39,039 bases of DNA from Alphaproteobacteria bacterium (GTDB lineage: Bacteria > Pseudomonadota > Alphaproteobacteria > SMXQ01), in assembly GCA_030831315.1 (NCBI GenBank), contig JAURLI010000032.1, forward strand, positions 1 to 39,039, in the 5' to 3' direction. The position numbers and the translations under genes are program-made. The notes beneath the pieces were generated by a model. The model saw only the letters and a list, made by a program, of their open reading frames with translations, was not told the origin of the DNA and searched no databases. Of the stretch, positions 34,602 to 38,711 are shown one piece after another (within the stretch, counting starts at the first letter, position 1; every line of letters starts with the position of its first letter).

Positions 34602-34841
34602 ATGTCCGAACCCGTCATCGCCCGCAAGAACTACTACGAAGTCGATCTCGATGGCGGCAAGGAATACTGGTGGTGCTCCTGCGGGCATTCACAGACGCAG
34701 CCCTTCTGCGATCAATCGCACAAGGGCACCGAATTCCGCCCCAAGCTGATCAAGGTCGAACAGGATCTTCGCCTGTACCTGTGCGGCTGCAAGAAGACCA
34801 CCGATGCTCCCTATTGCGACGGTACCCATGCGGGCCTTTAG
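34602..34841 (+). CDS. Dual CDGSH iron-sulfur domain protein
   Basis: A 79-residue protein with two CDGSH-type 2Fe-2S motifs: CSCGHSQTQPFCDQSH and CGCKKTTDAPYCDGTH, each with the three-cysteine one-histidine set. The first has DQSH instead of DGSH. Tandem-CDGSH proteins relate to the MiNT/CISD3 group of mitochondria; they are redox or cluster-transfer proteins. No signal peptide, so probably cytoplasmic. It starts at ATG 34602 and its last 14 bases overlap the lipoprotein gene. Confidence 0.93.
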   Translation: MSEPVIARKNYYEVDLDGGKEYWWCSCGHSQTQPFCDQSHKGTEFRPKLIKVEQDLRLYLCGCKKTTDAPYCDGTHAGL

Positions 34842-35454
34842 CCGGATTTTCGTCGTCGCGGCGCTGGCCGTCGCGGTTTCGGGCTGCGCCAATCCCTTCA
34901 AGAAGAAGGATCCGCTGCCCTGTCCGTCCGCCGCCATCGTCAAGGATGCCTCGCGCATGGTTGTCTTCCGGCCCGGCCCGGGACGCGACGTCACCGATAT
35001 CGTGGTGGAGGCGCGCCTGCCGCGCATCCTCGTGTCCTGCGAATATAACGACCGCGGCGTTGAAGTAACCACGGTGGTCAATATCGTCGCTGCGCGCGGC
35101 CCCGCCGACACCACGCGCCGGGCATCGATCCGCTATTTCGTCGCGGTCATCAATCCGCAGACCCAGATCATCGGCAAGCGCGAATTTGAATCGGAGCTGC
35201 AGTTCCCGATCAACATCGACCGCGGCTTCACCAGCGAGGAGCTGGTGCAGATGATCCCGGTCGGCAAGGACGTCGCCGCCGACGGCTATGCGATCGCCAT
35301 CGGCTTCCAGCTGACGCGTGAGGAACTGGAAGCGAACCGGCGCGGCACCGGCGTATCGCTGATTTCGCCTGCCGGCGTGCAGCCGAGCCTGCCGGCCCCT
35401 GCGGTGCCGGCGGCGGATCCCTATCCGCAAAGCCAGGGCAAGGGCTTCCAGTAA
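34828..35454 (+). CDS. Putative lipoprotein of unknown function
   Basis: A 208-residue product with a lipoprotein signal: MRAFSR, a hydrophobic run, lipobox VAVSGC, then ANPFKKKDPLPCPSA. The mature domain (about 40-175) is beta-rich with ILVSCEYNDRGVEVTTVVNIVAARGP, IRYFVAVINPQTQIIGKREFESELQFP and a final VAADGYAIAIGFQLTREELEANR; the tail is proline-rich. Two mature cysteines (in PCPSA and VSCEY) may pair. It resembles hypothetical alphaproteobacterial lipoproteins I cannot name. ATG 34828 fits the signal peptide and overlaps the CDGSH gene by 14 bases; a start at 34804 is open but would bury the signal. Confidence 0.8.
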   Translation: MRAFSRIFVVAALAVAVSGCANPFKKKDPLPCPSAAIVKDASRMVVFRPGPGRDVTDIVVEARLPRILVSCEYNDRGVEVTTVVNIVAARGPADTTRRASIRYFVAVINPQTQIIGKREFESELQFPINIDRGFTSEELVQMIPVGKDVAADGYAIAIGFQLTREELEANRRGTGVSLISPAGVQPSLPAPAVPAADPYPQSQGKGFQ

Positions 35455-35513
35455 CTTATCCACAAAGGCCGACTTCCCGACTTCGATCCGCACCGAAATC
35501 GCTGTGGATAAGT
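35454..35513. promoter_or_regulatory. Inverted pair of perfect DnaA boxes
   Basis: TTATCCACA (35456-35464) and its complement TGTGGATAA (35503-35511) both match the consensus DnaA box exactly. They are the cores of an 11-base perfect inverted repeat, ACTTATCCACA and TGTGGATAAGT, with 38 bases between arms. The second arm ends 12 bases before the proposed -35 box of the gcv promoter. I found no other exact copy in the window. A stem with a 38-base loop and no T-run is unlikely to be a terminator. Protein binding is an inference. Confidence 0.6.
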
Positions 35514-35525
35514 GGTGGGCTTCGG

Positions 35526-35553
35526 TTGACCGTCTACCCCCCACCGCTAAGAT
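35526..35553 (+). promoter_or_regulatory. Sigma70-like promoter for the gcv operon
   Basis: TTGACC (35526-35531) and TAAGAT (35548-35553) are separated by 16 bases. The predicted start, near 35560, would place the glycine riboswitch about 20 bases into the leader, which is the expected arrangement. Confidence 0.6.
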
Positions 35554-35582
35554 GCCTTTGCCAATAGGACACGTCATGTGAT

Positions 35583-35773
35583 CCCTGCGGGAGAGATCGG
35601 CCGGGCCCAGCCCGTCCGGCGCCGAAGGAGCAACCGCCCCGGAAACTCTCAGGCAAAAGGACCGCAGGGGGATGGCACTCTGGAAAGCAGGCGCGGGGGT
35701 TTGCCGCGTCTCACCGAAGATGTAAGCCGGGCCGTTTTTCCCCGGTGATTCTTTCAGGTTCTGGGACAGATGG
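35583..35773 (+). ncRNA. Tandem glycine riboswitch (two aptamers)
   Basis: Aptamer 1 is closed by P1 CCCTGCGG (35583-35590) with CCGCAGGG (35662-35669) and contains the conserved GGGAGAG, GCGCCGAAGGAGCAA and GGAAACTCTCAGGCAAAAGGACC. Aptamer 2 begins with GGCACTCTGGAAAGC, contains CACCGAAGATGTAAGCC, and ends with TTCTTTCAGGTTCTGGGACAGA near 35770. Joined aptamers with a short linker are the standard glycine-sensing form. It lies in the leader of gcvT, so glycine is expected to switch on glycine cleavage, the usual role of this class upstream of gcv genes. Confidence 0.95.
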
Positions 35774-35809
35774 GGCGCGGGCAGCGGTCATGTGGCCGTT
35801 TGCGCGCCC
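35773..35809 (+). promoter_or_regulatory. Possible expression-platform stem after the glycine riboswitch
   Basis: GGGCGCG (35773-35779) and CGCGCCC (35803-35809) form a perfect seven-pair stem right after aptamer 2 and five bases before the gcvT ribosome-binding site GGGAGA (35815-35820). There is no T-run, so control, if any, would be at translation initiation. The role is inferred. Confidence 0.4.
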
Positions 35810-35826
35810 TCGACGGGAGACCCAGA

Positions 35827-36951
35827 GTGCCGAGTGCCGATACTGTCCCTGCCAAGCTTTTGCGCACGCCGCTGCACGCCCTTCATGTCGAACTGGGGGC
35901 CAAGATGGTGCCTTTCGCCGGCTACGACATGCCGGTGCAGTATCCTGACGGCATTCTCAAGGAACACCTGCACTGCCGCGCCGCGGCAGGGCTGTTCGAC
36001 GTTTCTCACATGGGCCAGGCGCGCATCGACGGTGACGGCGCCATCGCCGCCTTCGAGGCGCTGGTTCCGGGCGACATCGCCGCCCTTGCGCCCGGGCGCA
36101 TGCGCTACACCATGTTCACCAATGATGCGGGCGGCATCCTCGACGACCTGATGGTGACGGCGCGCGCCGACGGCGGCCTGTTCGTGGTGCTGAATGCCGC
36201 CTGCAAGACGGCGGACATGAAGCACCTGCGCGCAGGGCTGTCGGGCGCTGCCAAGGCGACGCTGATGGAAGACAAGGCGCTTCTCGCCCTGCAGGGCCCC
36301 GCTGCCGTCGCTGTCATGGCGCGGCTTGCGCCGGGGGCGGAAAAGATGGCCTTCATGTCGGCGGCGGCGATGGACGTCGCGGGCATCGGCTGTTTCGTGT
36401 CGCGTTCGGGCTACACCGGCGATGACGGTTACGAGATTTCGGTACCCGCAGCGCGGGCCGAGGAGCTTGCCCGCAGGCTGCTGGGCGAGCCGGAGGTGGC
36501 GCCGATTGGTCTCGGCGCCCGCGACACGCTCCGTCTTGAAGCCGGGCTCTGTCTTTACGGCCACGACATCGACACCACGACCAGCCCGATCGAAGCCGGC
36601 CTTGCCTGGACCATATCGAAGCGCCGCCGCGCTGAAGGGGGCTTTCCGGGTGCTGCGCGCATCCAGGGCGAACTGGCCTCCGGACCCATCCGCAAGCGCG
36701 TCGGCATCCGCCCCGAAGGCCGGGCACCTGCGCGCGAGGGCACGGCCATCGCCGATGGCGCGGGCAAGCCCGTCGGCGCCGTCACCTCGGGCGGTTTTTC
36801 GCCGACGCTTTCGGCCCCCATCGCCATGGGCTACGTCGCCGCCGCCCAGGCCGCCGCCGATACGGCGCTGGCGCTCGATGTGCGCGGCAAGGCCCTGCCG
36901 GCCCGCGTCGTGCCGATGCCTTTCGTTCCTCACCGCTATCACAAATCCTGA
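35827..36951 (+). CDS. gcvT: Aminomethyltransferase (glycine cleavage T protein)
   Basis: The T protein releases ammonia and passes the one-carbon unit to tetrahydrofolate. The 374-residue product starts with LLRTPLHALHVELGAKMVPFAGYDMPVQYPDG and contains GLFDVSHMGQ, YTMFTNDAGGILDDLMV, GYTGDDGYEISVP, LGARDTLRLEAGLCLYGHDID and TSGGFSPTLSAPIAMGYV. The start is GTG at 35827, with GGGAGA upstream; the ATG at 35770 in the same frame lies inside the riboswitch and is rejected. It is the first gene of the gcv operon, 19 bases before gcvH. Confidence 0.96.
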   Translation: MPSADTVPAKLLRTPLHALHVELGAKMVPFAGYDMPVQYPDGILKEHLHCRAAAGLFDVSHMGQARIDGDGAIAAFEALVPGDIAALAPGRMRYTMFTNDAGGILDDLMVTARADGGLFVVLNAACKTADMKHLRAGLSGAAKATLMEDKALLALQGPAAVAVMARLAPGAEKMAFMSAAAMDVAGIGCFVSRSGYTGDDGYEISVPAARAEELARRLLGEPEVAPIGLGARDTLRLEAGLCLYGHDIDTTTSPIEAGLAWTISKRRRAEGGFPGAARIQGELASGPIRKRVGIRPEGRAPAREGTAIADGAGKPVGAVTSGGFSPTLSAPIAMGYVAAAQAAADTALALDVRGKALPARVVPMPFVPHRYHKS

Positions 36952-36970
36952 CCCCAGCACGGAGCCCGTC

Positions 36971-37348
36971 ATGGCCGAGACCCGCTATACAACAGAACAC
37001 GAATGGATCCGCCTCGATGGCGGCGTCGCCACCGTCGGCATTTCCGAATATGCCCAGTCGCAACTGGGCGACGTCGTTTACGTCGAACTGCCCGAGGTCG
37101 GGCGCAAGGTCGCGCCCGGCGACGACATGGCGGTGGTCGAATCGGTCAAGGCCGCGAGCGAGGTCTACGCCCCGGTCGCGGGCGAGGTCGCCGAAGTGAA
37201 CCCGGCCCTTGCCGACAAGCCCGAAACCATCAACGACGACGCCGAAGGCGACGGCTGGTTCGTCAAGCTCGCGGGCGTCGATGCCGGCGCGCTCGGCGGC
37301 CTGATGGATGCCGACGCTTATCGCAAGTACGTCGAAACCCTCGCCTGA
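36971..37348 (+). CDS. gcvH: Glycine cleavage H protein
   Basis: The lipoyl carrier of the glycine cleavage complex; 125 residues. The lipoylated Lys60 is in [19 protein letters not shown], and [37 protein letters not shown] and the C-terminal GWFVKLA segment match the family. ATG 36971 follows a GGAG site. It lies between gcvT and gcvPA. Confidence 0.98.
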
Positions 37349-37364
37349 GCAAGGACGGACCCCC

Positions 37365-38711
37365 ATGCGCTACCTGCCGCTCACCGCCGCCGACCGCGCC
37401 AGCATGCTGGCCGTGATCGGCGCCAAGGAGGTCGACGACCTGTTCGTCGACGTGCCGCGCTCGGCGCGCCTTTCCGCCCCCGTGGACCTGCCCGCCCACG
37501 CGGGCGAGATCGAGGTCGAGCGCGCGCTGCGCGCCCTTGCGGGCCGGAACACGCCGGCGGGCGATGCGGCGAGCTTTCTCGGCGCCGGCGCCTACCGTCA
37601 TTTCATCCCGGCCGCCGTCGATCACCTGATCCAGCGCGGCGAGTTTCTGACGTCCTACACGCCCTACCAGCCCGAAATCAGTCAGGGCACCCTGCAATAC
37701 CTGTTCGAGTTCCAGACCCAGGTGGCGATGATCTCGGGCATGGAAATCGCCAATGCGTCCCTTTACGACGGCGCTTCGGGCGCGGCGGAAGCGGCGCTGA
37801 TGGCGCGCCGCGTCACCCGGCGCTCAGGCGTGATCGCTTCGGGCGGGCTGCACCCGCACTGGCGCGACACGGTGGCGACCCACCTGCACTGGTCCGACGC
37901 GGCGCTGACGGCGGCCCCCGCCGATGCGGAAGGCCGCGAAGACCTCGCCGCCATGATCACCGACGACACTGCCTGCGTCATCGTCCAGAACCCCGATGTC
38001 TTCGGCCATGTGCGCGATCTGTCGCCGCTGGCGGCCGCCTGCCAGGCGAAGGGGGCGCTGCTCGTCGTCTGCGTCGCCGAAGTGGCGTCGCTTGGCCTCG
38101 TCACCCCGCCGGGCGAGATGGGCTGCGATATTTTCGTGGGCGAGGGGCAGGGGCTTGGCCCCGGCCTCAATTTTGGCGGGCCGTACCTCGGCCTGTTCGC
38201 CACCCGCGAACGCTTCGTGCGCCAGATGCCCGGGCGCATCGCGGGCGAAACCCTGGACGCCGACGGCAAGCGCGGCTGGGTGCTGACGCTGTCGACGCGC
38301 GAACAGCATATCCGCCGCGAAAAGGCGACCAGCAACATCTGCACCAATTCCGGTCTCTGCGCGCTGGCCTTCACCATTCACATGTCGCTCTTGGGCGAGG
38401 AAGGCTTCAGGCGTCTTGCAAGGCTGAACCACGCCAATGCCTGCCGCATGGCGGACCGCTTCGCGGCGGTAAAGGGTGTCACCGTCCTGAACGATGCCTT
38501 CTTCAACGAGGTGACGGTGCGCTTGCCCGTCGCCGCCGGGCCGCTGGTCGATAGGCTCGCCCGCGACAAGGTTTTCGCGGGCGTGCCCGCAAGCCGTCTT
38601 TATCCCGGTGTCGCCGGCATGGAAAACCTGCTGATTTCGTGTGCCAGCGAAACCACGACTGAGGCCGATATCGAAGCCCTGGGCCGCGCCCTCGAAGGAG
38701 CCCTGCGATGA
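37365..38711 (+). CDS. gcvPA: Glycine dehydrogenase (decarboxylating) subunit 1
   Basis: The N-terminal half of the PLP-dependent P protein, encoded separately here as in many bacteria. The 448 residues contain [83 protein letters not shown] and [20 protein letters not shown]. The PLP lysine is on the other subunit. ATG 37365 lies 16 bases after gcvH, and the end overlaps gcvPB as ATGA. Confidence 0.97.

Follow-up and report, generated by a model that had tools for sequence, protein, structure and literature searches.

Two DnaA boxes ahead of a glycine-riboswitch operon

The window, a 39,039-nucleotide stretch of an alphaproteobacterial genome (2.7 Mb in 89 contigs), carries a gcv operon preceded by a predicted sigma-70-type promoter and, upstream of that, by a lipoprotein-like gene whose product had no NCBIfam or Pfam match (Table 1). 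The promoter search returned this one promoter against 0.1 expected. Tandem RF00504 aptamers lie between the promoter and gcvT, which makes this a glycine-riboswitch operon, as an earlier sequence-only reading of the window had it; the true start of gcvT is probably near position 35830.

Table 1. Features around the gcv promoter, numbered from the first base of the window
Feature	Position	Strand	Basis or remark
Upstream lipoprotein-like gene, 216 aa	34804..35454	+	Stop codon abuts distal box
Distal exact DnaA box	35456..35464, extended to 35454 as ACTTATCCACA	+	Exact match; this genome alone
Proximal exact DnaA box	35503..35511, extended to 35513 as TGTGGATAAGT	-	Exact match; conserved in relatives
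Predicted sigma-70-type gcv promoter	35526..35553	+	-35 TTGACC 35526-35531, -10 TAAGAT 35548-35553, spacer 16
Glycine riboswitch aptamer 1	35578..35674	+	RF00504, 74 bits
Glycine riboswitch aptamer 2	35679..35770	+	RF00504, 35.7 bits
gcvT	35770..36951	+	NF010093 GcvT, 562 bits; ORF 393 aa
gcvH, approximate limits	36965..37348	+	C-terminal part of ORF 36326-37348; named by position and sequence
gcvPA, glycine dehydrogenase subunit 1	37308..38711	+	NF001696, 573 bits

The exact DnaA box TTATCCACA occurs only twice in the window, as an inverted pair with starts 47 bases apart, and no additional match with 0 or 1 mismatch was found anywhere in it. Both boxes extend to 11-base arms, the left one starting on the last base of the stop codon that ends the upstream gene, and the -35 element TTGACC follows 14 bases after the proximal 9-mer and 12 bases after its arm. 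This geometry bears out the sequence-only reading in every part, as does the GC content of 65.5%, which it had put at about 65 percent. Its estimate that well under one exact box would arise by chance also holds: from base composition, 39 kb should hold 0.07 exact boxes, and a distance within 60 bp between some two of the genome's 18 exact boxes is itself improbable (P ~0.007). Counted with up to one mismatch, the two boxes compare with 2.3 expected from shuffling, and the unusual feature is that both are exact and close together, not their total number.

The proximal box is an exact consensus box whose centre lies at about -53 from the predicted gcv transcription start, with no overlap with the promoter hexamers. 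It lacks a neighbour, the best partner box reaching 4/9, which is chance level. DnaA of E. coli favours two boxes 2-3 bp apart in vivo, where it occupied only 13 of 32 single boxes of exact sequence (PMC11317965); the gcv site differs from such tandem double boxes in standing without a partner.

Conservation of the gcv box among relatives

The window genome belongs to an uncultured alphaproteobacterial family, in which a second species of the same genus (G001) and genomes from other genera allowed the gcv upstream regions to be aligned. The proximal (-) box stands exactly 14 bp before TTGACC in the window, in G001 and in G005 (another genus), while G003 and G007 (a third genus) have a one-mismatch copy, TGTGGATGA, 24 bp before TTGACC, so that the spacings in the family read 14, 14, 14, 24 and 24. 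No box precedes gcv in G002 and G006 (a fourth genus). The proximal box is thereby conserved before orthologous gcv genes in three of the four testable genera, and the distal box is not conserved. The promoter itself is steadier still, with TTGACC invariant across seven aligned relatives and the -10 element TAAGAT or close to it.

The comparison between the window and G001 separates the two boxes: identity is 12/13 for the proximal box and its flanks and 6/6 for each of the -35 and -10 elements, against 1/9 for the distal box and 8/37 for the stretch between the boxes. Because of this difference the pair is not the conserved unit, and the idea of the inverted pair as a unit, put forward from the sequence alone, falls already within the genus, although the alignment of relatives that it called for did uphold the proximal box. 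Judged from these alignments, the conserved element is one box, the proximal, and the inverted pair is particular to the window genome, the distal box probably being a lineage-specific second site. As a conserved unit the exact inverted pair was also sought in the order's 10 other genomes and was absent from them. In G001 the region ahead of the gcv promoter, where the window has the gene at 34804-35454, is different in sequence.

A second family (f30) has TTATCCACA before the same gcv promoter in four genomes (G039, G155, G308 and G303), in the opposite orientation and at 20, 20 and 20 bp from TTGAC in genus g34 and 30 bp in G303; the riboswitch downstream was confirmed for all four. Spacing differs by 10-bp steps, one helical turn, in the window family (14/24) as in f30 (20/30), which is as expected for a protein obliged to face RNA polymerase, a pattern with few independent events behind it.

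Beyond these two families the arrangement was not recovered. Among 387 genomes of the class, a box before gcv in the window orientation gave true matches only in the window's family; a match in G147 was rejected as a tRNA locus and one in G381 as lacking a riboswitch. In a separate set of gcvT loci, none showed an exact box at any gcv promoter that could be recognised, the exact box at one of them (L081) lying 493 bases upstream of the match, and a box before gcv was rejected as a class-wide feature. Class-wide, the phase of boxes relative to TTGAC showed no clustering by eye among the spacings listed, most TTGAC occurrences not being promoters. Tandem RF00504 aptamers before gcvT are what the window operon shares with other alphaproteobacterial gcv riboswitch operons (RF00504 was present in 34 of 61 sampled genomes), and the exact upstream box, seen in the window family and f30 only, is where it differs from them.

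These comparisons weigh on another proposal of the sequence-only reading, a DnaA-titrating locus. Taken further, the boxes would bind DnaA as titration or timing sites, comparable to datA or DARS, and leave gcv transcription unaffected. The two perfect boxes within 60 bp would suit such a role, as would a genome-wide total of 18, at which each box takes a noticeable share of DnaA, but the conserved single box tracks the gcv promoter despite differing upstream sequence and a different neighbour gene, and at a fixed helical phase that titration does not need. Nor is there a dense datA-like cluster, only a pair with a single conserved member, and I consider this explanation unlikely.

Boxes across the genome and the family

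Pattern searches of the whole genome returned the exact word TTATCCACA 18 times and its reversed control 12 times, so that the raw counts say little. The positions differ sharply. Eleven boxes are intergenic and five lie within 120 bases of a gene's first possible start codon; of the remaining two, one sits at a stop codon and one is truly within a gene. Intergenic or gene-edge placement accordingly applies to 17/18 boxes and to 0/12 reversed words, all of which are inside genes (Fisher P 1.5e-7), in stretches with a coding fraction of 88%. Many copies in unrelated places, which would have counted against the original proposal, were therefore not what was found: the 18 exact 9-mers in 2.7 Mb are nearly all at gene starts or in intergenic positions. 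The genes beside them include dnaG, dnaE, an adenosylcobalamin-dependent ribonucleotide reductase, gcvT and class II DAHP synthase, as well as bioB, transketolase, a cell-wall amidase and lgt. Class II DAHP synthase occurs twice, at contig edges (G000:C2:1027, L001; G000:C86:564, L018), in copies that are about 90% identical, each with a box 10 bp before TTGAC, and these are either paralogues or a sign that the assembly contains strain variation.

For the family, exact boxes were listed, most of their neighbourhoods fetched (G009 was left out) and the adjoining genes clustered. A box precedes ribonucleotide reductase in seven family genomes and also in the f30 genome G039. In genus g2 the reductase is of another subfamily (NF005736 as against NrdJ_Z), with 35% identity to that of the window genome, and it keeps the box, 24 bp before TTGAC. 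The reductase box has one orientation throughout (G000:C79:50851-50859, L013, six other family genomes and L304 in G039). Seven genomes have a box before dnaE, three of them as an inverted pair with a 6-bp gap; this pair (G000:C81:7674-7697, L016/L017; G002:C151:59897-59920; G006:C83:4682-4705) lies ~77-109 bp before dnaE and is kept in two genera, with a single box in other genera. A box stands beside ybjN in seven genomes, before DAHP synthase in four, clpX in four and uvrC in three, and before dnaG, bioB, dnaX, purC and P-II in two genomes each, so that the relatives add dnaX, purC, uvrC and clpX to the targets of the window genome. The ybjN-side box is intergenic (G000:C42:52567, L008, and six other family genomes), with lgt on its opposite side in the window genome. 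This target set is close to known DnaA regulation of ribonucleotide reductase, purine genes and parts of the replisome in other organisms (PMC11317965; PMC8203912).

The window genome encodes one DnaA C-terminal domain. Its domain IV, the part that reads the box, aligns over its full length with that of E. coli (1J1V, E 2e-26), and the segment GGRDHTTV, which contacts the DnaA box, is identical. A candidate origin was noticed between a SelT/W/H-like gene and sdhC (G000:C80:8046-8106, L014/L015), where TTATCCACC and TTATCCACA stand in tandem 3 bp apart together with TTATACACA; the tandem boxes and their one-mismatch neighbours are conserved in the congener (G001:C112, L198). This region is the probable replication origin, and its boxes are consistent with TTATCCACA being the site of DnaA in this genome.

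The targets could instead belong to another regulator with a TTATCCACA-like site, a thought encouraged by genes outside the usual remit of DnaA (ybjN/lgt, bioB, DAHP synthase and P-II). Such a regulator would have to share the exact DnaA consensus, act on dnaE, dnaG, dnaX and ribonucleotide reductase, and have its site in the probable origin in a tandem with the DnaA-typical spacing of 3 bp, in a genome whose DnaA has an E. coli-like reading domain, and I regard this as improbable. Boxes without function, present by chance, are more improbable again: the window indeed has no excess of one-mismatch boxes, and the gcv site is missing in one family genus, but box and position are conserved in the family and recur in a second one, and the exact boxes as a whole show a strong intergenic and functional bias. 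A hairpin built from the arms, in RNA or DNA, that serves as terminator or attenuator after the upstream gene is scarcely credible. The arms are perfect 11-base inverted arms starting at a stop codon, but no terminator-like site was found, predicted folding is unremarkable (z -1.57), and the best fold does not pair one arm with the other. The distal arm also lacks conservation, and the whole element precedes the gcv transcript.

DnaA and the gcv promoter

The sequence evidence for a constrained DnaA site at the gcv promoter is strong, and the proximal box is probably the DnaA site of that promoter within a family regulon for replication and precursor supply. Of the three options in the sequence-only reading, the first, DnaA control of one-carbon supply, thus gains support from the conserved position of the proximal box, the second family and the other targets, and a titration locus loses ground as the site follows the gcv promoter past different upstream neighbours. 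The putative regulon would comprise dnaE, dnaG, dnaX, ribonucleotide reductase, purC, uvrC and clpX together with precursor-supplying metabolism. At gcv, DnaA would sit ~53 bp upstream of the start (or ~63 bp, one turn further) on a fixed face of the helix adjoining RNA polymerase, and there it would most likely activate transcription; activation fits better than repression by blocking because the box is just upstream of -35 and leaves the hexamers free. The glycine riboswitch downstream would then set whether the gcv transcript gets used, and the two jointly may adjust the output of 5,10-methylene-tetrahydrofolate, which goes into dTMP and purines, to both glycine and the state of replication. 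That DnaA binds the site in living cells, that it activates and does not repress, and that gcv expression is timed to the cell cycle are what I infer from this arrangement.

Several points weigh against the reading of the proximal box as a DnaA site: it stands alone where DnaA of E. coli prefers double boxes, the box is missing before gcv in one family genus, its arrangement is confined to the family within the 387 genomes of the class, and ybjN/lgt, bioB and P-II are targets outside replication. The fullest version of the proposal is that DnaA directly activates the glycine-riboswitch operon, with one-carbon supply gated by replication state and glycine, that a lineage-specific regulon directly controls replicative polymerase, primase, clamp loader and ribonucleotide reductase, and that the gcv site arose independently, in the opposite orientation, in another family. 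This I put forward tentatively, as falling somewhat short of an even chance.

Known systems offer partial precedents. The single-box promoters of gcrA and mipZ in Caulobacter crescentus are activated by DnaA (PMC3193534), and gcrA, mipZ, ftsZ and hdaA resemble the gcv case as alphaproteobacterial promoters with one or few boxes and activation by DnaA. The Caulobacter DnaA regulon numbers ~40 genes including nucleotide biogenesis and cell division (PMC2877005); the gcv operon differs in not being named among the Caulobacter DnaA targets in the available excerpts. The E. coli regulon (nrdA, nrdD, purH, polA, uvrB and dnaA) is similar in having the same 9-mer before reductase and purine genes (PMC11317965). 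Literature searches gave no link of DnaA to gcv, DnaA with glycine cleavage returning only genome papers and similar, and in the literature searched the gcv operon is a new target under regulation of a familiar sort. If the proposed DnaA control of gcv holds, DnaA would act as a transcription factor not only on reductase and purine genes but also on the source of one-carbon units for making dTMP and purines, and the making of DNA precursors may be coupled to replication start.

DnaA sites were poorly conserved in a previous comparison of the promoters of cell-cycle genes across alphaproteobacteria (PMC2877005). Within the present family, footprinting of exact boxes recovered coherent targets from mainly uncultured assemblies. 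The same comparison lists primase and DNA polymerase III of Caulobacter under GcrA, whereas here dnaE and dnaG carry boxes themselves, and the family is one in which the replisome genes themselves have conserved DnaA boxes.
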